Assembly (NCBI RefSeq): GCF_027409185.1
Contig: NC_084463.1
Span: 47,610,907 to 47,674,906 of the forward strand
Direction: 5' to 3'
Length of the DNA stretch: 64,000 nt
From: Cynocephalus volans
Lineage: Eukaryota > Chordata > Mammalia > Dermoptera > Cynocephalidae
The notes beneath the pieces are model-generated. The model saw only the letters and a program-made list of their open reading frames with translations. It was not told the origin of the DNA and made no database searches. The position numbers were made by a program, and so were the translations under genes. Each line of letters starts with the position of its first letter. Position 1 is the first letter of the stretch. Positions 2,690 through 57,245 of this stretch are shown one piece after another.

Positions 2690-3790
2690 TTCTCTCAGCT
2701 TTTATTGTACAGGCAAGAAAGTTACAGAAGAAACACAGGGGGTTAATCAGTCATAGTGAAAACAAACAAACTGGCTACAGGACAATCTTCATTAAAGCAG
2801 GTGTAACTTAAAATAGTCCAAGCAATTTACCATCAAAAGGAATAATAGAACTAAGCTATGTGACATACAGAAACAATGAAATAATCACTATAGCAGTGCT
2901 TAGCTCCCTAAGAAACTCCAAGAAACAGCTGAGGGTAAGATGTGGAACATCCCCCAACCACTAACTAGCAGAATAGCCTTGAAGGTTTTAGTTCACATAC
3001 TTTCTCATTATTTAGGTTTAGCTGCACCAAGGGCAACTGCCCCCAGAGCAATCACTTTTGCTGTGTTTCAATTCTCTTATCTACATTAAAGACTTCAGTC
3101 CTGTGAAAGTTTTTCTGGTTTTTCCCAATCTTAGCATTTCCATGTGTTTTTCTAAAGAGTTGGGCTATGACTTAAACTACAGGACTTTAGTCCTGCTAAA
3201 CTAAGGACTTTGGTCCTACTACGCTATAGGCTATGGCCCTGTGAAATACATGTGTTTATTAACGTCAGTGTCCTCCACAAGGTGCTGTCTTCCTCGATGA
3301 TTATGAAGGAGATCAGAGTGTGCCATCCCAACATATGCTATGAGTACACAGGCATGGGGATTATTTTGAGCTGAAGACAATTGAAGAAACCTTCTTGGAG
3401 CTTCCTTTAACTAAAAGAAACTTTGAGAAATGAGGACTGCCGGAAATCTCCTCTCTAGGGGAGTTTTTATGGCCACGCAGAAGATGGAAATTCTGTACCA
3501 AGAAGAGTCTGCACAAATAATCCTTACTAAACAACCCTTGTCTCCTATGCATGCCCTAGTCACCTTCCCATAATTCATCACCTGTTAAAAATGGTATGTG
3601 AGTGCCTGAGCCTAACAGCATCGTTGGTTTTTCCTTTTTCTCTGAAGCCTCCGTGCATGTAAAATTAAAAACTTAAGATGAAAAGTGCATGCTTTTTCTC
3701 CTGTTAATCTGGCTTTTGTCAGTTTACTTTGTAGGCCCCAGTTACAAACCTAAGAGGGTAGAGGTATTTTTCCTTCTCTACAATTACATT
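2690..3790. mobile_element. Probable ERV LTR-derived sequence (fossil)
   Basis: The right part (about 3590-3790) resembles the end of a class I LTR, with a polyadenylation-type A-rich stretch, a 'gaaaagtgcatgctttttct' motif, and a purine-rich then pyrimidine-rich end. The left part has an inverted poly(A)-signal-like start near 2700. Family and exact ends are unresolved. Small inverted repeats sit at 3180-3220. Confidence 0.3.
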
Positions 3791-3904
3791 TCAGAAATAG
3801 CTCCAACGTCCTTCAGGATATATTCCTGAGGTGTCACACTGGCAAGAGGTTTGTTTAGCCATTAACAAGATTTACATACATTTGAATTTGAAAAAGACAG
3901 AGAA

Positions 3905-3985
3905 TGGGGCTACTGGCTAGCTCAGTTGGTTAGAACACAGTGTTACAGTGCCAAGGTCAAGGGTTTTTATCCCAGTGGCAAAAGA
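3905..3985 (+). repeat. tRNA-Ile-derived SINE monomer (CYN-like)
   Basis: The body follows tRNA-Ile: 'ctggctagctcagttggtta' is the A-box region and 'aaggtcaagggttt' lies in the position of the T-arm/B-box. It is followed by an A-rich tail. It is diverged compared with the copies at 32.7 and 56.5 kb. Confidence 0.8.
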
Positions 3986-4840
3986 AAAAAAGAGAAGGAC
4001 AGAGGATGAAGTTCTGAAAGAAAGGGTTATATTTGCCTTACAGGGTCTCCACCTGTTCCTCGCCCTCCCTCCCCACCCCACCCCCAGGAAAATGTGGATA
4101 TTCAACAAATACTTGCTAAAATACTGCATCAGCCTAGGATTTCAGTATTAATGTTCTGTTTGGGACCCCTGGTTATAGGGCTGAGATGTTATTTTTCCTT
4201 TACGGTAAAACAATTAAAAACAGCCTTAATATCCTGAAAAGGAAACACTATAAAATCATTAAGGAGAATCAGAAAGCTCTTATATATCCTGGTAAGCTGT
4301 TAGGTTTACTAAAAGACAGGTCAGACAACATATATGCACATTTCGGTAAAAAGTCATAATTAGATGATTGTATATGCACCTCTTGAAAAATATACAAGAA
4401 ACTCCATCTGAAGGGAAAATTAAGGGCTGAGAAACCCCCTCCAATTGAAAAAGATTCAATTTTCACTATATAAACCCTTGAAATTCTTAAATCTTATACC
4501 ATTTCTATAGTCTTTTTAAAAATAAATAAAATTTTGAAGTGAAAATGTCAGCCATGTCAATTCGGAAACCAAGTCTAAACAGTTACAAGGCGGCTGTCCC
4601 TTCACTGTGGCGGTCAGTGGCACTCTTTCAGTGTGATGCTGCTCCCTCCAGCCCCATGAAGTTATTAACATTGCAGAGAAGACGAGAGAAAGAACCAGGC
4701 ACTCCTGAAAAATAGTGTGCTCCATTGAACGGAAAGGAAGACGGGCCCCCGGAAACAGGACAGCAGGGTCACGGCATCTGTGTTCAACCCTGACTCCTAG
4801 TCAGGAAAGTCCATCGTGTCGTGTAAAGACAAATCCAGGT

Positions 4841-5202
4841 TGTGACGGACTGAATGTCTGTGTTCCCCTGAATTCCCTATGTTGAAATCCTAACCCCAAG
4901 GTGATGGGGTTAGGAGCTGGGGCTTTGGGAGGTGATTAGATCATGAGGGTGGAGCCCTCATGAGTGGGATTAGTGCCCTAATGAAAGGGACCCTAGAAAG
5001 GGTCCTCACCCCTTCCACCATGTGAGGACACATGAAAAAGCTACCATCTGTGAACCAGGAAATGACCTTGAGAAACTAAATCTGCTGGCACCCCATCTAT
5101 GACTTCCAGCCTTCGGAACTGTGAGAAATAAATTTGTATTGTTTAAAAGCCACCCAGGCTATGGTATTTTGTTATAGCAACCTAAACAGAGTAAGACGAC
5201 AT
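4841..5202 (+). mobile_element. MST/MLT1-type MaLR solo LTR (fossil)
   Basis: A complete TG...CA LTR of the MaLR group. It contains the 'aggtgattagatcatgaggg' block, 'ccatgtgaggacacatg', 'ctgctggcacc', the 'gtgagaaataaat' polyadenylation signal and the 'ggtattttgttatagcaacc' end. No internal region is visible on either side. Confidence 0.85.
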
Positions 5203-6690
5203 AAGACAGATTAACAGTAGAAAAGCATACATATTGCATTTTTATATGTACCAGGGCACCTTCACAGGAAAATGAAGACCCCCAAAGTGGTTCGGCCTAC
5301 GTGTTTACATACCAGGTTGAGCAGAGTAGTGACTTGTAAAAAAGTAACTAAATTATATGAGGCTAAACGAAGATACAAGTTATTTTAACAAGGTGTGTAT
5401 TTTTCTCAGCCTCAAGTCCCCATCTCTGGTGATAAGAATCTTTCTTGTCTCCTGGTATAGGAAGGGCATGTTTCCCATGGGAGTCACGTCCCCTGCTTTC
5501 AGGAAGAAAACAGAAGTGCCTTTTTAAGTGCCTTTAGCTCAAGGTAATCCACATGCCCACCTGGCATATTTGGGGTGGCGTAGTCTTTCCTCTGATGCCC
5601 AGCCCTCTTTTCCTTCCATTGCTTATTTTCAGGGTTTCCGCTGCATTCTGCTGATAAACGCTCCACTCTGAGGCTGTCTCTGTAGCATTCAGGGGCTCAC
5701 AGAATTCAGTAAAAGGGGAACAAATGTCTACACTTCAGCTTACTATTCCCACATGAGTAGGACCGGCAGGACAGCAACAAAGGCCCCAGTCCTAATTATA
5801 ATAGTTTCATAGTTTTATAAAAATGATTCAAATTTTCCAGGTGGGACTAAATTGGTTCTCATGACAAACACTTGAAAGCAATTAACTTAAAAACATTCAA
5901 GCAATTGTTTCCTACCACAGAGGGCAGCATTACTTGTCCTGTATTTAGAAGCTATTTCCTGAGCGACCCCAGTTATATCACAAGGGGGAGAACCTGAGCC
6001 TCTCCTGTCTCAGTGCTCTCTCCTCTTCCAGCTTTTCTCAAGTCATCTTCTCTCTGCACCACCAAGTTGGTGGCATGGTATCTGGAGAGTGAGAAGGCAT
6101 CCCCATGGGGCCCAGTGGGTGCATCCCTGTCCTTGGCCACCCTGCCCAGTTCTCAGCACGTCTCTCCAGCTTTGGGTCCACATGGTTTTGAGTCAAGGAT
6201 TCACATGGGACCTGACATGTATGTTGCCTGCAAACCCCTGGACGCAAAACCCTTGCTGGGCTTTATCAGTCCTGCTGCGCTTCCTGGACAGGTCCATGTC
6301 TTTCTGCTCAGAATTAACACTGCCTAGTGCAGAGCTGTGCCCCTTCCGCACAGTCCTGGGGATGTAACACAAATGTGTGTGTTGGAAAGGCTTCCTTGAG
6401 TACTATATTATTAGTCTGCTTCTCTTTATAACAGTCTCTGCGTACTGTTTTCTGGACAGTCCTTCAAGAATTTGTCATCAGCTTACTTACGTACATTCTA
6501 AAAGTGGAGATTTTAATTGTGTGCGTACTCATTTAGTTGCTATAGCGTTTGAATTGAGTCGGCAGGATATAAGCCGGGCTCAGAGGCTTCCAAATCCCAC
6601 TAATGCATTCTGAGAGCCTCTTACTCACACCCCTTGCTATTCATAAGAGCACTTTTTACTATCATTGCTTCTACATGCAATACAAGCCTC
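5203..6690. other. Unassigned sequence, probably old repeat remnants
   Basis: The part at 5210-5620 looks like a diverged interspersed repeat that I cannot name. Overlapping open frames on both strands at 6.0-6.37 kb carry no recognisable domain and no promoter context. I see no gene. Confidence 0.35.
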
Positions 6691-6810
6691 CTTCACTCAA
6701 CTGTAAGCCCCTGGAAAACCGAGTGGCCAGTGACAGTAGGGAATGGATTTTACTCTGTGTTCTCAGCACCAGACAGTGCCTGGCTACCAGTAATTTAATG
6801 AAGCCTTCAG
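6690..6810 (+). repeat. Possible L2/MIR 3' end
   Basis: The text 'ctgtaagcccctggaaa', then 'ctcagcaccagacagtgcct' and a final AATGAA stretch follow the order seen in L2/MIR 3' ends. Confidence 0.4.
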
Positions 6811-7465
6811 TGAAGAATTGTAATTTGTACCAAAGAAGGAAAATTCTTACATCCGTATCCTTACAGCCATTCTCAAGTTATCCCGACCTAAACTCCACTA
6901 TTGGTTGCCTGGCTAACCACCCTGGTGACAGGATTTCTCCTCAAATTGATTCCTCGACCCTCGTCCCCAGATTATCAGTCTACTTTGCAGGTCTGGGAAG
7001 CCTGTTCCAACGTGCCAGGATGTGGGCCATCCATGCCAGACACTGCTCAGGAAGTTAACTACCGAGTAGAGCACCTCCTTCCACTTACGCTGTTAACATG
7101 TGACTCTGGACTTCTGGCCTAACTGGAGATGGCCTGAAAACACACGCCTCTAACCAGCCCCACAGCACATGGGCCAAGTTAATAAACCCCACTCACTAGT
7201 CTTCCAACCTAATTGGCACTAAGCCGAGTTAGCGCGCGCCTAACTAGGCTGCCTTCTGAACAGATGCTCCAGTTCGTGCAGACAACTAGCGGGGCTCGTA
7301 ACCTAACTGGCATTGGGCTGAGTTACCACAAACACCTCATTAGGTTTATTACCTACCTAATCGATAAGCGAACAGAGGGGACAGAACCGGCACCGGCCGC
7401 CGGAAGAAGCCCCCTGGACGCCCGGAAACCCGCCATGTTACAGCCACTGTTTGTACCAAACGGGT

Positions 7466-7481
7466 GGCTCTGAAAAGAGCC
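7466..7481 (-). terminator. Histone mRNA 3' stem-loop
   Basis: On the minus strand this reads ggctcttttcagagcc followed by ACC: a 6-bp stem with a four-base UUUC loop. This is the SLBP-binding element that replaces poly(A) in replication-dependent histone mRNAs. It lies 39 bases past the H3 stop codon, the normal spacing. Confidence 0.95.
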
Positions 7482-7520
7482 TTTGGAGTGACAGGACCTC
7501 AGGGCGACCGCCCGTGGAGC

Positions 7521-7931
7521 CTAGACCGGCTTCCCGCGGAGGCGGCGCGCCAGGTGCATGTCTCTGAGCATGATGGTGACACGCTTGGCGTGGATGGCGC
7601 ACAGGTTGGTGTCCTCAAACAGCCCCACCAAGTAGGACTCGCAGGCCTCCTGGAGCGCCATCATAGCCGACATCTGAAAGCGCAGGTCGGTCTTGAAATC
7701 CTGCGCGACCTCTCGCACCTGCCGCTGGAACGGCAGTTTGCGGACCAGCAGGGCGCTGGATTTCTGGTAGCGGCGAATCTCGCGCAGCGCCACCGAGCCG
7801 GGCCGATAGCGGTACGGCTTCATCACGCCTCCGGTGGCCGGGGCGCTCTTGCGGGCTACCTTCGCGGCCAGCTGCTTCCGCGGCGCCTTGCCGCCGGTCG
7901 ACTTCCGCGCCCTTTGCTTGGTGCGAGCCAT
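7521..7931 (-). CDS. Divergent histone H3 (H3.1/H3t-like) with Met at the K36 position
   Basis: An intronless reading frame of 136 codons, exactly the H3 length, starting at the ATG at 7931 and ending in TAG at 7521. The protein is nucleosome core histone H3. Residues 1-5, 7-21, K27, K56, K64, K79, C96, C110 and K115 are as in H3.1. V24 and S98 match the testis H3t (H3.4) pattern. About 22 of 135 residues differ from H3.1: T6R, T22A, A24V, K36M, H39Y, T45S, T58S, E59A, I62V, L70Q, I74V, S86M, V89M, A98S, P121L, K122R, I124M, Q125H, I130L, E133K, R134P, A135V. The gene is GC- and CpG-rich in an AT-rich setting and has its own TATA box, CCAAT boxes and stem-loop, so it is not an mRNA retrocopy. 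No other histone gene is nearby. Expression and function are not known from sequence. Confidence 0.95.
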
Positions 7932-7993
7932 GACCACGACGTGGCTCCCGCTGTCTCCGCTCCCGACTGGCACTGAGCAGCTCAGCGCTCTCG

Positions 7994-8002
7994 CTTTTAT
8001 AG
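7994..8002 (-). promoter_or_regulatory. TATA box of the H3 gene
   Basis: CTATAAAAG on the minus strand, about 65-70 bases upstream of the start codon. This predicts a 5'UTR of roughly 35-40 bases, as is usual for histone genes. Confidence 0.9.
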
Positions 8003-8018
8003 AGCCCGCAGCGCTCCC

Positions 8019-8065
8019 ATTGGTTGGCCGCCGGGTGGCGCGACGGCAGGCTATGTTCTGATTGG
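8019..8065 (-). promoter_or_regulatory. Paired CCAAT boxes of the H3 gene
   Basis: CCAAT occurs on the minus strand at 8019-8023 (ccaaccaatggg) and again at 8061-8065 (gccaatcag). Two CCAAT boxes upstream of TATA are typical of replication-dependent histone promoters (NF-Y sites). Confidence 0.85.
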
Positions 8066-8082
8066 CTCTTAAGGCGCTCATG

Positions 8083-8131
8083 CACTGGGTCCCTGGGCAG
8101 GCCCCGAGGTGCTGGCATGATGTGCCTGGTT
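8083..8131 (+). repeat. Single unit-like match to the 78-bp minisatellite at 26.87-27.10 kb
   Basis: The tract 'ctgggtccctgggcaggccc' followed by 'gaggtgctggcatgatgtgc' aligns to the minisatellite in the L1-derived element at 27.0 kb, with roughly four of five bases matching over about 50 bp. It lies directly upstream of the H3 promoter. Confidence 0.5.
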
Positions 8132-8271
8132 TCACCAAAAGAACTTCAATAAGCTTTTATGGCACTGCAATTAGAGGAACATTAACCCATAACATGCAAC
8201 AAAAATGATTTTGCTTTTTGGAACTATTTAACAAATAAATTTGACATTACAATTAACAGCAACATACTGTT

Positions 8272-8445
8272 GTTTTTTTTTTTAAAGATGACTGGTAAGG
8301 GGATCTTAACCCTTGACTTGGTGTTTGTCCTCAGCACCACGCTCTCCCAAGTGAGCTAACCGGCCATCCCTATATAGAGATCCGAAGCTGTGGCCTTGGT
8401 TTTATCAGCACCACACTCTCCCAAGTGAGCCACGGGCTGGCCCCA
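8272..8445 (-). repeat. tRNA-Ile-derived SINE dimer (CYN-like), inverted
   Basis: Read on the minus strand, two tRNA-Ile-like units lie head to tail. The first has 'gtggctcacttgggagagtg' and 'atctctatatagggatgg'; the second has 'gttagctcacttgggagagc' and 'agggttaagatcccct'. They end in an A tail (poly-T at 8272-8284 on +). It is immediately followed by an L1 fragment. Confidence 0.9.
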
Positions 8446-8446
8446 A

Positions 8447-8632
8447 ATTTCTTAAATATTTTATAACCAAGTTTATGTCATTTGCAATCAATGACAGTCC
8501 TACTTCTTTTTCAATTTTCAGAATTTTGCTTATAATTCTTATGTAAGTTTTGCTGGCAAAATTTTTAATTCAATGTTAAATAGAATGGTAATAGTGGACA
8601 TTCATATTTGTCAATGTTTATGTAAATCAGAG
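8447..8632 (-). mobile_element. L1 ORF2 fragment (antisense)
   Basis: The reverse complement follows the part of L1 ORF2 around the reverse transcriptase, including the 'gaataggagtggtgagag'-equivalent region. It is old and truncated at both ends. It marks the left edge of the duplicated segment that follows. Confidence 0.6.
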
Positions 8633-8919
8633 TCATGAATCAGGTAAGCAAACCCTAGAGCCAGTACCCAGCAGAGCCTGATTTTTCCCTATTCTTCTTC
8701 CCACTTTCCTTTTCACACATAGAGAAACTCTGGGATGGGGCCTCTCAGGACAGATTAGAACATCATACTTCTAGAGAAGCTTGTTAGACAGTGCAGGGGT
8801 CCCAGTGAGGAACAAAGTTTTTGTTTAAACCTCCAGTCTAACTGTGAGATGGGCAAATTCAGGAAAGAACCTAAATCCCTGAAAGGGATTATGAAGAGAG
8901 ATCAGGATCCCTGCAGGAG

Positions 8920-9412
8920 TGCCACAACACAGGTTCTTCAGTCACTTTCTTGAAAGAAAGCGAGTCGGGATGCTGGGTACTGTTCAAGCTTTATTAAAGA
9001 AAGAAATCTGGCGGGCTGTATTCAAAATGGAGGACTGCCCAGGGCTGCCCTGAAAATGGGGACAGCACCAGGTGTGGGGGTGGTAGAGATTATACAGTGC
9101 ACCAAGAGCTGGGTGATGTAGTTCCAGGGTGGGGATTGAGTTAGATCATGGGGATGGAGAGTTCTGCACGTGGGGAAATGCCAAACGTTTCATTTTCTCT
9201 GAAACCAAGAGGCTTCTTGTAAAAGAGAAAGGTGGAGGGGAGGGGAGGAGGTGGACGGTGCCATTTTGTACTTGAGCTTGTCTAAAATGGTGCTGGTTAT
9301 GTTGCAGATCTATTACTTCTGAGGTCGGATTATCAGGGCTAAGCCTCTGTGGCAGGGCTGTTCTGCAGCACAGTGCAGACCTGGGAAAGCCTCTGATGAC
9401 CTGCAAAGGACA
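8920..9412 (-). mobile_element. Solo ERV LTR (fossil) inserted in duplication copy A only
   Basis: A TG...CA element on the minus strand with an AATAAA-type signal near 8990. The equivalent place in copy B (near 53.35 kb) runs uninterrupted, so the LTR either arrived after the duplication or was lost in B. Class I is likely; the family is not resolved. Confidence 0.65.
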
Positions 9413-9659
9413 AAGCTCTGGCCTCAGGGGGAAGTCTCCTATCTGATGGAACCTCATGCCTCTGTGGGTGTGAGAATCTATGCCCTTCCTCAGCAGAGCA
9501 CCACCGATGAAATAATTATTTGAGGATCATGTGTAGCTAAGCCTTAGTAATTTTTAATTTCTCAAAGAAAGAAACATAGAAAATATTTTATCCACTTTAA
9601 AATTGAGTAATGGGGAGCAACACCAACTCTTGAGGGTTGTCTCTCCATCCCCATAAATT

Positions 9660-10340
9660 TCAAAAAACCCAGTATATCCTGTTAGAATTAACCTTATCAA
9701 AATTTGCATATTTAGTATTTCCTTCTTAGCCATGCAAATTTATCTTTGATTGCACCTTCGTCATCCTATAGGTTGTAAAAAATAGATCAATTTTTCTACC
9801 TTTGTGACAGGAACATCAAATTCCCAAACACCCGGTGCTAATGATGCCATCCCCACTGTAGCTTTTATTGTTTATATAAAATTTCCACACACTTGGGTCT
9901 ATTTCTGAATTTTTAGCTCCAATGATCTACCAGTCTATTCACCAGTCAACATAGCTCATAAGGGAAACCACCTTTACTTTTTCTTTTTCAGAATTTCTTT
10001 GGCTATTTTTATTTGTTTTAATCTTTAAGATTTTTACAATAACATGCCTAGTTTCAATACCTAATTGATGACAGCCCTATTGAGATCAAATTAAATTCAT
10101 AAAATAGCTTAATGAAAAGTGATGTGTTTATAATATTGAGTTTTTCTACCCAAGAACATAATATGATCTTTCGTTTATGTCTACTTTCATACTGTCAGGA
10201 GTTTTCTATGCTTTTTCTCAAACACACTTCACAGTTTTGTTACATTTATTCCTACGTACTTTTTTATTTTATTTATATTATTTATTTTGTATTTTTGTAA
10301 TTATATCCCACACACAACTGTAACTTGTAAAATATTATTT
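9660..10340 (-). mobile_element. Old L1 (L1M-type) fragment, antisense
   Basis: Antisense L1 ORF2/3' sequence ('gttgagtttttctacccaag'-type text near 10135). It is shared with copy B at 53.69-54.30 kb, so it predates the duplication. Confidence 0.65.
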
Positions 10341-10979
10341 TGTACATATGTGCGTGTATGTTGTGTATAATTCAAAGCTATGTGTTGGGTTCAAATTGAT
10401 TTGTAATATTTTATTATTGAGTTGACCCTTGTACTGCAATGACAAACTGCTGTCCCCCAACTACAGAAACAGCTGTTGGGTCTAGAGTAATCAGGGTGAA
10501 TATAACTCAGAAGTAAATAGAAAATGGTGCTCTAACCCGCACAGTCAGTAACAACAACCTCCACATGAATGAACTAGGTAATTATCTAAAATATTAAATA
10601 CTCAAAAAACATTGATATTTTTCTCATCTCTATGTTAAATGGAAATTATAAGGCAAATGACAAAACAATACCCAACTGATTTTATTTTTCTGTTAAAAAT
10701 GTATATACATTTATGATGAAAGTGTGCATAAACTCAGTGTAAAATGTAAATAGAACAATATATAAAATAAAACATAAAAATATGTGTATGTAAGTCAAAT
10801 GACCATATCTATATTAGATTTCATATTCTACAGTAAAATATGCCAAACTGAAACCTATAAAATGGGGTAATGTTTAAAGTTAGTCATATAATATAAGCCA
10901 GCTGAATAATACACAATACATCAATTAGCATTTACCTACTTTAGCTTAGATGGGACATAAAGGAAACAGAAAGTAAACG

Positions 10980-11110
10980 ATCATGGTGTGGTGACTGCAC
11001 CACGAGTTCCTCACACTGAGAACTGTGCACAGCACACTGGAGGACGCTGTCAGTGGTGGGGACGTCAATCCGTCGCGGACTGAGGCGGGACAGTGAAGAG
11101 CTACAGCCTT
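10980..11110. other. Short GC-richer block in the FRG2 3' flank
   Basis: A CpG-containing stretch ('caatccgtcgcggactgagg') inside AT-rich DNA. I see no counterpart in copy B. Nothing codes here. Confidence 0.3.
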
Positions 11111-11560
11111 TTCTCAATTCACAGAGGATATAAATATATACTCATTTTGCTACACTTTAAAATATTCAAACACACGAATTATTATGCTAATATTTGTTCT
11201 GATTATTAAAAAATGAATGATTGTTATATTTTAAAGATGTCAATGTTTAACATAAAATTTGACATTGGTCTGTAATCTTTGTCCTCGATGAAACCCTGAG
11301 TGCAGCATTCTGAGTGTATTGTGCAACTTCCTTTCCTACGACCGCCCAGGTTCTGTCAATTATTAACACACTGTGTCTAACATCTTCACTGCTCATCACC
11401 TGGAGGAAGCCGACGAGGTCTTCATTAGCAGGTCTTTGTTCTCACTCCCAGAGCTGAGTCCTCTGCTGATCAGGGTCAGGGTGCTCAGCTCAAGCCTAAT
11501 CGGATAAACTGACAGACTCCACTAGCTCCTGTGCAGAGAAGGGGTGGGATCTTCTCCTTC

Positions 11561-13163
11561 CTAGGAGAAACTCTGAGCTTTTCCATCCGGGGATGAATCT
11601 CCAGGACCATGCTCTGGGGCTGGGATGAGCCAGCCCTCAGCAGGGAAGACATAGGCCGCCTGGGTGGCCATGGCATATAAGGTCTGCACTGCAGTGCACA
11701 GAGACCCCCAGAGCTGGGCAAGATCAGAGAACTGCTCCCTGGTCAACGGAGAATGGATTTGCTGGGCCTGTACCTGAGCTATGTCTTGATAAATGACCTC
11801 ACACATAGCACGCAGGAAGGTCACCAGGCTTTTCCGAAGTGGTGGTGGGTGGTGTCTTAGGGACCCAAATCTTCGCTTCTTGCTGTGCCCAGTGTGGGCC
11901 CCCTGCAATTCCCAACTGTGGATGTCATAGGTCTCCTCAATTTTCCTGAAGTTCACAGGGTCAGAGGCCTTTGGTTTCTTTTCTGAAGTCAAGCTGTGCT
12001 CATCTCCTAGACAGTTCCCTGGGGAGGAAGCAAGGGAGTGAGAGACTTGCCAGAAAAGTCTCCACAGACCTCATTCCCAGGATCTCACCGTGCACCTTCA
12101 GGTGAACTCCACTTGTCTCTCCTCCTCCTTCCTGACCTTCTGAGTCTCCATAATGAAATGAGGCTGAGCTCCTCATAGGTACCAAAACACTCTCTGAGTC
12201 CCAGGATCTCTAAGACCCTCTCAGACGCTGAGAAACATCCTTTCTGCCCAAGCCCTGTATAAGTTTCCTGCTGGTCTGCTCTCAGGACAAAAAAGGACCT
12301 ACCTGTTCCATCTTGGCAACTGTCCTTGGAACTGATTTTCCTCTTCCTGGACTTCCTCCCATCTGAGCTGGACTCAGATTCTGTGGATAATTGAGAGTTT
12401 GAGGGAGTGCCTACAGCTGAACACCTTAGCAACCCTGGTCCATCCTGGACACACAAGCAGCTGAGGCTGCACCCAAAACTCAGTGCTCTTTCATTCTCGA
12501 GTCCAGGATCTGTAAGGCCCGGCCTGCCAAGAGCTCCCAATTCCATGCCCAGGGGAAACTGTGTTAACCCATCCCCTGTCCCTTTCCCTCCCTGAGAAAA
12601 TCAAATCTTACCTGATCTGTCAATGCTGTTTCCAGCGTTAAGCTCAGTTTCCTTGGAATTCTCCTCCTCATTCAGATTAAGTTCTGGTCCTAGAGGAAAA
12701 GGGAGCTTAGGTGACTGGCCTCCTCTTAGGTCCTCAGAGCCCCCTAGTCTGTTCCCGATCTGTATTTGTGGGTCATTCTCTCAACCAAGGCTGTTCAGTC
12801 AGTGTCAAGTGTAAATGGGAAGAATATGCTTCCAAGGGATAATTGCCACATTTCTCAAGGCCCCTGGAGAGTGATGACTCCTTTCCCAAGCCCAGTCTCA
12901 AAGTTAAACTCTACCAAAGAAACATCCTCACTGTCCCTGAGTCTACCTTCCTTCCAGCCTCCACATGAACAGCTCGAGTCCGTACCTCGCCTCTGAGTGC
13001 AGTTCTCACTGGAATGTAAAGACAGAGTCTTGTGTTTCTCTTCAGATGGTTTCTCCTCCTCCTCTGAGCCACTTTCTTTAAAGGAGAGTTGTTGGAAAGA
13101 AGGCTGGTCAGTGCAGTGCTGGAGGGAGCAGTGAGGTTCTGCTTCTTCCGTTCCCGACTCCAT
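11561..13163 (-). CDS. FRG2: FRG2-like protein (FSHD region gene 2 family), four exons, intact
   Basis: The coding exons on the minus strand are 13163-12986, 12689-12612, 12380-12303 and 12018-11561. Every intron has GT...AG ends and joins in phase 1. Together they give 792 bases, i.e. 263 codons plus stop; human FRG2 is about 278 residues and extends slightly further at the C terminus. Family matches in order are CTDQPSFQQLSF (exon 1), a Glu/Asn-rich exon 2 (NEEENSKETELNAGNS), RKRKISSKDSCQD (exon 3), then LRKSLVTFLRAM, VYQD-like VIYQDIAQV, QQIHSPLT and ATQAAYVFPAEGWL (exon 4). The start chosen lies 12 residues before the HC pair, as in human. FRG2 is a nuclear protein of unknown biochemical role that is up-regulated in FSHD muscle. 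The paralogue at 55.3-57.0 kb is broken, so this is the likely functional copy. I am confident of the family; the one-to-one relation to human FRG2, FRG2B or FRG2C is not decided. Confidence 0.9.
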
Positions 13164-13400
13164 GCTGAAGTTCAAGTGCAAGGTCCTCTCTCCTGCACGT
13201 ACAGATGCGCAGTGGGGGTCGGCCTCCTGGGCCTGCCTTTGATAAGCCCCTCAGCTGGGCGTGGCTCACTCCTCCTGGCTGAAGACACTCCTTCCTCCTG
13301 CCACGCATCGGCACCTCAATAAGGAATGTTGGGGATTGTGATCGTACTGGGGACCTAGACATGGGTAAAAGGACATTTTTGAAGGGTTCTGTCATAGAGT
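13164..13400 (-). promoter_or_regulatory. FRG2-like 5'UTR/promoter region
   Basis: This block is the best conserved non-coding stretch between the two FRG2 copies (compare 57001-57205). It contains GGGCGTGG (on +, near 13258), an SP/KLF-type site, and 'caataaggaatgtt', which holds a GGAATG TEAD-like core. Assignment as promoter rests on position and conservation only. Confidence 0.5.
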
Positions 13401-28804: not shown

Positions 28805-30317
28805 ATAAATATCTTCTCTTTTTAATTATAATTTTACTCACAATACTAATTTTACTAATTACCATAACCATTACTAACATTTATAAAAATATCTTCTACA
28901 CTTCTATGTAGAAACATCAATTTCATATGCTTTTATAATCTGCCTAAATTTAACCCTGATATTTATTTATTCATACCAAGAAATAACCACCTCAAACTGA
29001 TATCGAATGACTATTTAATTCTTAAATCTTACACTTGGCTTCAAGTTAGATTATTCCTCAATAATATTTGTGCTCATAGCACTTTCTTGTCATAATGATT
29101 GATCATATAATTTTTAATAAAATATATACATTCAGATCCAAACATCAAACCATCCAAATGAGTTCTTTAAATATTTACTTATGTTTTTCATCCCCGTACT
29201 AATTTTATCTACTGCTAACAGCTTCTTCCAACTCTTCATTAGGTGAAAAGTAGTAGAAATTATATTATTTTTACTTATCAAAGAATAATATGGCCAATTA
29301 GATACAAATATAACAGCAACTTTATATAATCCTATTGGAGATATTGGACTTGTTCTATCAATGCCATGATTTGAATTACACTCAAACACTTGAGAATTTT
29401 AACAGATTTTCGTGCTCAACCCTACCCTGATATTCTCCAATTAATCAGCCTTTTTCTGGCAGCAATGAGTGAATCTACCCAACCTGGCCTTCACCCGTGT
29501 CTACATTCAACAGAAGGAGGCCCTGCATCAGCCTCAGCCCCAGTCCACTACAGCACAGAAGTTGTAGCAGGAATTTTCTTATTCATTTGCTGTTACTCAT
29601 TAACAGAAACAACAAAACAAACACTAATGGTATGCCTAGCTGCTATTGCCACTTTATTCAAAGAAACCTGTGTCCTAACACAAATGACATCATAAAATTA
29701 TTTTGCATTTTTTGTCAAGTCAAGCAGGTCTCATGATAATTGCTATCATCATCAATCCACTACATCTAGACACTCCTTACATTGCACATGCATTCTTTCA
29801 AGCTCTGCTGCTCATACGCTTTGGATCAATTATTTATAACCTTAATCACAAACAAGCTATTTGAAAAACAGGAGGCCAGTTCAAAGCTGTACCTGTCACC
29901 ACTTCAGTCAGTGTCTGAAGCCTGGCACTTACGGCTGTGCCCCTTCTTACACGCTTCTGCTCCAAAGACTCAAATACTGAAACCACAAACATGTCCTATA
30001 CTAATGCCCAAGTCCTGGTAATCAGACTTAATGCCACCTCCCTAACAACTCTCTGTGGTACTCTAGTTATTTTCTTTGCACTTCTAGAACAACCTCAGTT
30101 TTCAACTCTAATTCATGTCAATGAAAACAGCCCCCTTTTAATTAATTCAATTGAGTATCTAATGATTGGTAGTATTTTTGCTAGATTTGCTATCTCTAAC
30201 AACATTACTCCTATAAATATTTCACAAATGGCTATGCCACCCTACCTAAAGCTCTCAGCTCTTGCCATAAGTATCTTAGGCCTTAATATAGCATTAGAAT
30301 TTAGCCTAATAACATAT

Positions 30318-30740
30318 TGGATTAGTCCATTTTGATGCATATAAAAAAATACCTGGAACTGGGTGATTTATAAAGAAAAATGACAGTTATTGTTTACAGT
30401 TTCTGAGGCTGGGAAGTCCAAAGTCCATCTGGTGATGACGACACTGACCCAGGGGTCTCACACTGCAAGATGGTGGAAGCAGAGAGAGCAAATGAGAGAC
30501 AGACAGATTCTTCTCTTAAAGCCCTCAGAACCACTCCCTTGACCACAATGTTTAATCAATTCACTACTGCATGGCCCTATAATCCAATCACGGCTTCAAG
30601 GCTCCACCTTTCAATTACCATAATAGGATTTCCCACCCTCTTAACAGTCACAGTGGGGGCTAAGTTTCTAAAACATAATACTTGGGGGAAATAATTCAAG
30701 CTTCAATGAATTTTGGGGGGACAAAATTCAATCTACTACA
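30318..30740 (-). mobile_element. MaLR-type solo LTR (fossil) inserted in the NUMT
   Basis: A TG...CA element on the minus strand, running from 'tgtagtagattgaattttgt' to 'aaaatggactaatcca'. The same subfamily occurs at 48792-49212 on the plus strand (421 bp). Mitochondrial ND5 sequence continues on both sides, so it arrived after the NUMT. Confidence 0.85.
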
Positions 30741-54770: not shown

Positions 54771-55263
54771 ACATAGCTATGAGTGAGAACACGTGATATT
54801 TCTCTTTCCTTGTCTGGATTATTTTGCTTAACATAATTTTCTCCAGACTCATCCATGTTGCTGCAAAACTCATGATTTGTAAGAATGAATATGCTAATAA
54901 TAAATAAAAAAATGTAAAAATAAAAAAGATGAGAAAAATTGCAAGATCTCAGTGTAAAATGCAAATAAAATATATATAAAATACAATCTTAGCTCTCAAT
55001 GAAACCCAGAGTTGAACATTCTGAATATACTGTTCAAGTTCCTTTCCTATGACCACCCAAGCTTTCATCAGTTATCAGCACACTGTGTCTAATATCTTCA
55101 CTGCTCATCATCTGGAAGAATGTGAGACTTAGCAGGTCTTTGTTCTCACTCCCAGATTTGAGTTTTCTGCTGATTAGGGTCAGGGTGTCCCAGATCAAGC
55201 CTAATCTGATCCACTGACAGCTCAGTTGTCGCCTGTCTAGGGAAGGGGTGGCACACCTCCCTC

Positions 55264-57000
55264 CTAGAAGAAGCTCTGATTTCTTCATCCAGGGCCGGAT
55301 CCTTGGGCCAGGCAGTAGGGATGGTTCAAGCCAGCCTTCAATAGGGAAGACACTCACTGACTGGTTGGCTCTGGCATAAAAGGTCTGCACTGTGGTGCAC
55401 AGAGGCCTCTTAAGCTGGGTGATCCCAAAAAGTTGCTCCCAGGTCAGCAAAGAATGGACCTGCTGGGCCAAACCTGGGCTATGTCTTGATAAATGGCCTC
55501 AGACATAGAGCACAGGAAGGTCACCAGGTGTTTCTGAAGTGGTGGCAGATTATTTCCTGGGGACCAGGATCTGGGCCACTTTGCTCTTCACAGTCAACCT
55601 CCAGGGATCCCCTACAATGGGTATCATGAGTCTCCTCAGTTTCACTGCTGTGTACAGAATCAGAGACCTTTAATTTTTTAATCCAAAGTGAAGCTGCCCA
55701 CATCTCCTGGACAGTTCCCTGTGGAGGAAGCAAGTGAGTGGGAGACTCACCAGGACAGTTCCCCTGGATCCTCATTCCCAGGACCTCACCATGCACCTTC
55801 AGGTGAACCCCGCTTATGTCTTTACCTCCTTCCTGACCCCCTCATCCTCTGTAATGAAGCAAGGCCGACCCGTCCTTAGTCCACAAATGCTCCCTGGATC
55901 CAGAATCTCTAAAACCTTCTTATCCATGGAGAAACCCCCTTCCTGCCCAGCTCTGTATAAGTTACCAGCTTGTCTGCCCTTGGGACAAAATAAAAGCAAG
56001 AACCTACCAGTTCTATCCTGGCAGCTGTCACTGGAACTGATTTTTCTCTTCCTGAACTCTCTTCCATCTGAGCTGGACTCTCATTTTGTGGGTAAAATGA
56101 GTCTGAGTACTTCTAAACCAACACTTTAGAAAACTGAGTCAATCCTGGACTCAAACAGCTGAGGTTGCAGCTAAAACTTGGTTCTTCTCTGTTCTCCAGA
56201 GTTCAGGATCTGGAAGGTTCTGGATGCTTAAGAGCTCCCAGTTCCCTGCCCAGGGCAGACTGTGTTAACCCATCTCCTATCCCCCTTCTTCTTAGAAGAG
56301 TCACATCTTACCTGATATGTCAATGCTGTTTTGGGCTTTGAGCTGTTTCCTCGGAATTCTCTTTTGGATTGGGCTCTGATTCTAGAGCAAAGGGAGGTCA
56401 GATGACTCACATTGTCCTTGTCTACCCTGACTCATATTTGTGGGTCATTCTCTCAACTGGGGCTGCTCAGCAAGCATCAAGAGTGAGCAGGAAGGGCCGA
56501 GCCCGTGGCGCGCTCGGGAGAGTGCGGCGCTGGGAGCGCAGCGACGCTCCCGCCGCGGGTTCGGATCCTATATAGGGATGGCCGGTGCGCTCACTGGCTG
56601 AGTGCCGGTCACGAAAAAGACAAAAAAAAAAAAAAAAAAGAGTGAGCAGGAAGAATATGGTTTTAGTAGATCATTGCCACATTTCTCAAAGCCCTCTGAG
56701 GGCTATTATCCACTCACCACCTCCAGTCTAAAAATCAAACCCTCCCAAAGATGCACAACTCAGTACTCCTAACTCTACCCCTCCTCTTAGTCTCTGTATA
56801 AATAGCCCAAGTCCCTACCTTGTCACCGAAATGGGTACAGTTCTTAATGAAATGGGAAGACAGTGTCTTGCCTTTTTCTTCAGATGGCTTCTCCTCCTCA
56901 TGTGATCCTCTTTCTTTAATTATCTGCAGGAAGGAGGGCTGGTCAGTGGGGTGTTGGATGGAGGGGAAGTGAGAATCTGGTTCTCAGTTCCTAATTCCAT
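55264..57000 (-). pseudogene. FRG2: FRG2-like pseudogene
   Basis: All four exon equivalents of the gene at 11.6-13.2 kb are recognisable on the minus strand: 57000-56819, 56381-56312, 56085-56008 and 55718-55264. An ATG is kept at 57000. Exon 1 is frameshifted, so the frame stops early although TDQPSF and EEEKPSEEK segments can still be read. Exon 2 is 8 bases shorter. The exon 3 acceptor AG has become AA. Exon 4 is frameshifted; its best remaining frame (55034-55471) keeps CTTVQTFYARANQSVSVF and PIEGWL. The copy cannot make the full protein. A SINE sits in its first intron. Confidence 0.9.
56495..56638 (+). repeat. tRNA-Ile-derived SINE (CYN-like) with perfect target duplication
   Basis: Body 'ggccgagcccgtggcgcgct', 'gggttcggatcctatatagg', 'gtgcgctcactggctgagtg', then A18. 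The flanks agagtgagcaggaag at 56480-56494 and 56639-56653 are identical, 15 bp. The CpG-rich body with few changes points to a recent insertion. Copy A has the empty site near 12.82 kb. Confidence 0.95.
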
Positions 57001-57245
57001 GTTGAGGGCCAAGTGAAATGTCCTCTTTCCTGCACATTCAGATTCAGGGCACAGTGTCACCTGCAGGACGTGCCTTTTGTAAGCCTCTCAGCTGGGCGTG
57101 GCTCCTTCCTATTGGCTGAAAAGATGCCTCCCTCCTGCCACTCATCAGCATCTCAATAAGGAATGTTGTGGGTTGTGGTTGTGCTGGGGACGTAGACATT
57201 TATTATTCGGGGAGACTTATACAGGGTCCTTTCACAGCATCAAAA

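Follow-up and report, generated by a model that had tools for sequence, protein, structure and literature searches.

A family of H3.4-type histone genes with methionine at position 36 in the colugo Cynocephalus volans

The histone H3 gene of the window

The window, by which we mean the whole analyzed stretch of 64,000 nucleotides, corresponds to C4:47,610,907-47,674,906 in the Cynocephalus volans assembly. Its minus strand contains, at 7521-7931, an intact H3-4-like coding sequence, an unbroken frame of 136 residues followed by a stop codon. The encoded protein (P0001) matches Pfam PF00125 with 141.8 bits at a cut-off of 26.4, which is also exceeded by the related copies L022 (121.5 bits) and L024 (116.7 bits) discussed below. 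In the PDB search it was aligned with H3 chains across residues 1-134, as expected of a core histone H3, and the top match was the H3t chain 5b1l_A. Codon 36, in the numbering with Ala as residue 1, is ATG (7821-7823 on the minus strand, read 7823-7821) and encodes Met in place of the Lys of H3. Compared with H3.1 of the same genome (L034), the protein has 22 residue differences: T6R, T22A, A24V, K36M, H39Y, T45S, T58S, E59A, I62V, L70Q, I74V, S86M, V89M, A98S, P121L, K122R, I124M, Q125H, I130L, E133K, R134P, and A135V.

The gene is equipped with control elements at both ends, all on the minus strand. Upstream are a TATA box (TATAAAA) at 7995-8001, a proximal CCAAT box at 8019-8023, and a distal CCAAT box at 8061-8065. 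Downstream, the 16-nt histone mRNA stem-loop GGCTCTTTTCAGAGCC at 7466-7481 lies within a match to Rfam Histone3 (RF00032) at 7440-7486, which scores 36.2 bits with the gathering score being 34. Thus, the window copy has all the features of a replication-dependent histone gene, that is, an uninterrupted frame, a 3′ stem-loop, and CCAAT and TATA boxes. In these respects the sequence-only reading was accurate: it had claimed ATG at codon 36, a fully open frame with about 22 changes from H3.1, several of them named and all found in the list above, and an intact promoter, start, stop, and stem-loop.

Two FRG2-like units, at 11274-13362 and 54985-57199, are also present in the window and are approximately 74-76% alike; the first one is linked to H3 copies of the subfamily called A below. 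Its exon (PF15315, 167.2 bits, cut-off 27) at 11561-11992 is likewise on the minus strand, upstream of the window H3 gene. Seven of the 12 matches of this exon are full-length, 94-99% identical, and located on C4, and each full-length exon lies upstream of one A copy, the distance being 3.6 kb in the case of L009 and the window copy and 21-25 kb in that of L010-L014. In humans, FRG2 adjoins the DUX4 repeats, and H3.Y is a DUX4 target. Against this background, it is curious that FRG2 and H3 occur together here. A separate open frame at 29937-30335 on the plus strand contains the ND5 C-terminal domain (PF06455) and looks like a nuclear mitochondrial insert.

The gene family on C4 and its origin

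A genome-wide H3 search, in which 140 of 140 candidates were scored and 121 matches reported, places the window gene within a family. On C4, 25 nearly full-length H3 matches are found between 39.9 and 50.9 Mb, none of them with an inner stop; partial or broken H3 matches in this interval are absent among the matches listed. All 25 sequences are open frames and carry neither a stop nor a frameshift of the kind that marks a pseudogene. Codon 36 is ATG in 24 of them and AAG in L018 only. The copies encode 24 distinct proteins, 23 among the M36 copies. The family thus consists of an H3.4-type gene in 25 copies, 24 with M36 and one with K36, spread over about 11 Mb, with open frames, CCAAT and TATA boxes, and, in most cases, the stem-loop. 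The sequence-only reading had presented a single germline M36 gene; the gene is real, but it is one of 24 M36 copies of the H3-4 (H3.4/H3t) lineage, as indicated by V24, C96, and S98, apparently derived from HIST3 and accompanied by one surviving K36 copy. The same reading had named a frame break and AAG at codon 36 as observations that would speak against it. Examined in the paralogs, the 25 copies show no break, and AAG is confined to L018.

Because the same ATG is found at 24 separate places, M36 is not a single-base error. Duplicated regions are generally error-prone, and an assembly or base-calling artefact was considered for this reason; it is extremely improbable, as the codon recurs at these 24 places in 23 distinct proteins and the H3.1/H3.2 genes L033, L034, and L036 of the same assembly are normal. 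All four other H3 genes fetched (L033-L036) encode K36, with L035 shortened to 133 codons. A pattern scan of 132 proteins, which altered motifs would escape, detected the Met36 motif only in P0001, P0042, and P0123. The latter two, annotated as Cynocephalus volans proteins (P0042 as 'histone H3.1-like'), are database predictions that carry M36 and, being the same kind of data, provide no independent proof against an artefact. P0042 was also considered as cross-species support from a second colugo and rejected, since it is identical to the protein of L010 from C4. Among the matches listed, which are cluster representatives only, no Galeopterus protein is named.

Four subfamilies of the M36 copies, assigned by eye, can be described. 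Subfamily A consists of eight copies including the window gene, and subfamily B of five copies with the start MVRTKP. Subfamily C (L024, L027, L029, L030, and L032) starts with MDHTKQ or MDHSKQ; its five copies have lost in frame seven residues, 107-113 of H3 helix 2, including C110 and H113, a deletion that should disturb the H3-H3 interface. Subfamily D (L022, L023, L025, L026, L028, and L031) starts with MDHTKE, and its K9 and K27 are replaced by N9 and Q27, respectively. The D copies thus begin with Met-Asp; R2, R8, K9, R26, K27, and K36 are gone, and K4, K14, K18, and K23 are kept. In the A and B copies, K4, K9, K14, K23, K27, K37, K56, K64, and K79 are each conserved in 13 of 13, K18 in 11 of 13, and K36 is replaced in all 13. 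In 22 of the 24 M36 copies, including all 13 A and B copies, the segment G33-G34-V35-M36-K37-P38 (GGVMKP) is unaltered, the exceptions being L031 and L032; like the K36M oncohistone, these 22 copies combine Met at 36 with intact G33-P38. H39Y is common to all 24.

The residues V24, C96, and S98 point to the origin of the family. V24 has been named as the distinctive residue of H3.4, the gene of which lies in the HIST3 cluster together with H2A and two H2B genes (PMC13396413); TRIM11 and TRIM17 adjoin this cluster. V24 is present in the window copy, in L018, in 10 of 13 A and B copies (window copy included), and in four of five C copies, and is absent from all six D copies. C96 and S98 are found in the window copy, in L018, and in all 13 A and B and all six D copies; of the five C copies, two have C96 and all have S98. 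Two H2B genes are located 27 and 31 kb from L018 (C4:50,874,339). This spacing is repeated by the D copies L025, with H2B at 40,095,364 and 40,099,980, and L028, with H2B at 44,129,424 and 44,134,046. Inside the 64-kb window, no H2B gene occurs among the matches listed in the H2B genome search. Given the three residues, the H2B neighbors, and the repeated spacing, L018 is in all likelihood orthologous to H3-4, and duplication involved HIST3 units. The single K36 copy thus probably represents H3-4 of HIST3 (the testis histone H3.4/H3t), the ancestral gene, and the M36 copies are its probable duplication products.

Elsewhere in the genome, C30:113,940,311-114,596,382 contains at least 41 H2B-like matches and at least one partial match in tandem, mostly with 16-kb spacing. 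They are open frames of 144 aa, 45-51% identical to canonical H2B, and the array looks like H2B.W. Since H2B.W is X-linked in other mammals, C30 may be the X chromosome.

The H3-4 gene (HIST3H3), a eutherian testis histone, resembles the colugo genes in V24, C96, and S98 and in being a stem-loop gene, and the H2B genes 27-31 kb from L018 are as would be expected of a HIST3 cluster. The window copy differs in M36 and 21 other changes from H3.1. A further difference is the number of copies: according to a survey covering more than 100 eutherian genomes, H3.4 is encoded by one gene only, with dn/ds of 0.024 (PMC13396413), whereas 24 extra copies, and thus 25 related genes, are present here. Two other origins were rejected. 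H3.Y has R122, M124, and L130 in common with the window copy, but V24, C96, and S98 indicate H3-4. A retrocopy origin does not agree with the promoter and several kb of flank that the copies have in common. Primate H3.Y/H3.X and H3.5 and mouse H3mm are likewise lineage-specific H3 variants born by duplication; unlike the colugo family, they are mostly derived from H3.3.

Duplication history and selection

A tree of all 25 copies, in which H3.1 and H3.2 served as outgroup and codon 36 was omitted, unites the 24 M36 copies in one group with support 98/94. The K36/M36 label changes once on this tree, and the L018 branch is very short. As the M36 copies are one clade even without codon 36, K36M had a single origin at the base of the copies. 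Site patterns in 15 tested copies show 13-30 sites changed in the copy alone vs. 1-3 in L018 alone. L018 has changed little since the duplications, yet it differs from H3.1 at 12 positions, and hence much of the change predates the duplications.

The 3′ flank divergence between L018 and four M36 copies is 0.052-0.058. With mammalian rates of 2.2-4.5e-9 (PMC4198772) this gives an age of approximately 6-13 million years. The split between Cynocephalus and Galeopterus is older, at 18.3 million years (PMC4198772); M36 would accordingly postdate it, with K36 expected in Galeopterus. Gene conversion could make this flank age look too young. The duplicated stretches are long: 2695-12607 on the minus strand of the window is 99% alike with the nearest copy, L009, and about 2.7-8.6 kb of it is 96-97% alike with the other A and B copies. 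Matches to the A and B copies extend up to 8609, and those to C, D, and L018 end at 8083. When seven of the C and D copies, 10 kb each, were compared with L018, identity was 95% upstream and in the gene and 88-94% further down; L027 matched over 5.8 kb only.

The gene itself is embedded in a region of elevated divergence. At non-CpG sites, the M36 subfamilies differ by 5-10% from -150 to approximately +1150 and by 1.4-2.3% past +1150 (four pairs); for the window copy and L018 the respective values are 6-9% and about 5%. CpG decay alone was rejected as the cause. Within the window the fast region corresponds to 6780-8083, the gene and the first 700 bp of the 3′ flank; here and in the same stretch of the copies, divergence falls sharply to about 2% outside, and transversions are relatively more frequent inside. 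Either the gene part is older and its flank has been homogenized, or mutation or diversification proceeds faster in the gene part itself.

The reading frames have remained intact. In 21 of the 25 copies, those with long context, the coding part contains two distinct indels, of 3 and 21 bp, both in frame, whereas 974 bp of adjoining non-coding DNA, used as the reference, contain 29 frame-breaking indels. The coding count of zero compares with 12.2 expected (Fisher 3e-5), and the subsets behave similarly, with zero vs. 6.3 in the 13 A and B copies (Fisher 0.005) and zero vs. 6.8 in seven C and D copies (Fisher 0.003). In neutral simulations along the tree, on average 12-14 of 24 copies gained a stop, and only 4 of 900 and 6 of 1600 runs were stop-free. 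For the subsets taken separately, 22-58 of 400 neutral runs (6-15%) for A and B and 19-38 of 400 for C and D were stop-free, so the stop test is strong for the whole set only.

The control elements are conserved as well. The TATA box is present in all 25 copies, with 4 of 21 sites variable in its region; 1 of 22 sites varies around the proximal CCAAT box (-98 to -76), 2 of 16 around the distal one (-138 to -122), and 2 of 16 in the stem-loop. For comparison, 118 of 408 sites vary in the coding part, 31 of 55 in the 5′ UTR, and 28 of 55 in the 3′ flank. The CCAAT boxes, the stem-loop, and the TATA box, with variable fractions of 0.05-0.19 vs. 0.56 in the 5′ UTR and 0.51 in the 3′ flank, are the least variable stretches. 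The 16-nt stem-loop is exact in 18 of 25 copies, and five others have a UUUA loop; 14 of 18 copies scanned reach the Rfam gathering score, the ones below it being L009, L011, L022, and L031.

Protein-level constraint is much less evident. The sequence-only reading had suggested dN/dS as a check of purifying selection, and the outcome was divided. Likelihood omega under four free settings is below 1 (family 0.32-0.57, A and B 0.22-0.40, C and D 0.49-0.83), and relative to omega 1 the doubled log-likelihood gain under F3X4 amounts to approximately 45, 36, and 7, respectively, with kappa fixed at 2.5 in the omega-1 runs. The counted pN/pS of the 24 M36 copies, 0.81, falls within the neutral simulations (0.83-0.95). 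The A and B copies have 0.54 (P 0.015-0.10, depending on the mutation model), and the C and D copies 0.85 (P 0.34-0.58). Variable sites are about equally distributed over codon positions 1, 2, and 3 (39, 36, and 43 of 136). The family dN/dS overlaps the published value of 0.46 for H3-4 pseudogenes and is far above the 0.024 of coding H3-4 (PMC13396413). Amino acid replacements accumulate at about the rate of silent changes, and evolution is far faster in the tested copies than in L018.

Two explanations compete for this combination. The M36 copies could be young functionless duplicates, HIST3 units carried in segmental duplications, silent or harmless, in which protein constraint was lost and K36M is a passenger. 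The counted pN/pS of the M36 set, and that of C and D taken separately, would be as expected under neutrality, as would the omega of C and D and the overlap with H3-4 pseudogenes; the 13-30 changed sites vs. 1-3 in L018 are fitted by relaxed constraint equally well. The loss of K9 and K27 in D and of seven helix 2 residues in C agrees with this explanation, and L018 could carry the old function alone. It accounts poorly for the zero stops in 24 copies against a neutral mean of 12-14, for the zero frame breaks against about 12 expected, and for the conserved promoter and stem-loop footprints. We regard it as a realistic possibility, though rather less than probable. The other explanation is retained function, in which the frames and control elements appear to be maintained by selection even as the sequence drifts or adapts. 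Overall, the pattern agrees with a rapidly evolving variant or with genes that are still young and under relaxed constraint, and not with old dead copies.

Possible role of the M36 histones

The reading that we prefer, tentatively and with somewhat less than even confidence, is that the copies are a recent H3.4-derived germline family with frames kept, the products of which would form nucleosomes unmethylatable at K36. The products of at least the 13 A and B copies would be synthesized during S phase in male germ cells and incorporated into chromatin like H3.4. The stem-loop and promoter would provide S-phase, replication-coupled supply, and M90, a CAF-1-type residue, points the same way. The altered stem-loop loop of L009 and L011 counts against this reading. 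The C and D copies have diverged further, C by the seven-residue deletion and D by losing K9 and K27, and may be following a separate course or degenerating. Differentiating spermatogonia of the mouse have H3.4 as their main H3 (PMC13396413).

Since Met36 cannot be methylated, an effect in cis would follow if the protein is made. The M36 nucleosomes could not accept K36 methylation from NSD1/2, SETD2, or PRDM9, and would shift the balance of K36 and K27 methylation and of DNA methylation in cis. Expression of such a protein has a known price: in mouse oocytes, H3.3K36M lowers H3K36me2, and embryos are lost around implantation (PMC9349174). A colugo making M36 protein must therefore limit its time, tissue, or amount, free expression being costly.

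Dominant inhibition in trans is possible as well and lies outside the preferred reading. In its full form, the amplified germline histone would be a natural K36M inhibitor, abundant in spermatogenesis in amounts that block NSD and SETD2 on other H3, as EZHIP blocks PRC2 via its K27M-like motif; H3K36 methylation would be lowered genome-wide, and PRC2, DNA methylation, or PRDM9-marked recombination would be reshaped. The intact G33-P38 of 22 of the 24 copies, including all 13 of A and B, would suit such an inhibitor. K36M blocks SETD2 by occupying its lysine channel, and G33, G34, V35, and P38 give the strongest specificity (PMC7495481); on the nucleosome, K36M is held in the NSD2 cleft (PMC8593083), and its effect is dominant (PMC5335568). 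Many copies could supply the dose, and placental mammals possess a K-to-M mimic in the germline, EZHIP (PMC12713659). Against inhibition in trans are H39Y in all 24 M36 copies, which may affect it, and the death of mouse embryos caused by K36M in oocytes (PMC9349174). In one SETD2 structure with Asn at position 39, no specific side-chain contact was inferred for this residue (PMC7495481). On balance, we consider this scenario unlikely, both as a mechanism and as a K36 counterpart to EZHIP.

The two known systems differ from the colugo genes in other respects. The H3 K36M oncohistone agrees in the residue change and in the retained G33-P38 of its H3 tail, whereas the colugo genes are inherited, multicopy, and built on an H3.4 backbone with H39Y. 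EZHIP (CATACOMB) is also a placental germline protein that mimics an H3 site by a K-to-M change and is subject to fast evolution and duplication (PMC12713659); it is a non-histone protein targeting PRC2 and K27 rather than K36, and the comparison concerns only the way it works.

No report of a colugo H3 or of an inherited multicopy K36M histone was found among the papers listed in the literature searches, and colugo, Galeopterus, Cynocephalus, and K36M are all absent from the main text of the H3.4 survey (PMC13396413). Camel H3.4 is only 86% identical to the human protein (PMC13396413), and fast change of H3-4 is thus not unique to the colugo lineage; the new parts here are M36 and the copy number. 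This genome deviates from the published view of H3.4 in eutherians as one gene under constraint (PMC13396413). K36M has been known as a cancer mutation, and here two dozen inherited open copies are present in a living mammal. If they are used, they would be a natural experiment in how a germline tolerates, or exploits, the loss of K36 methylation.
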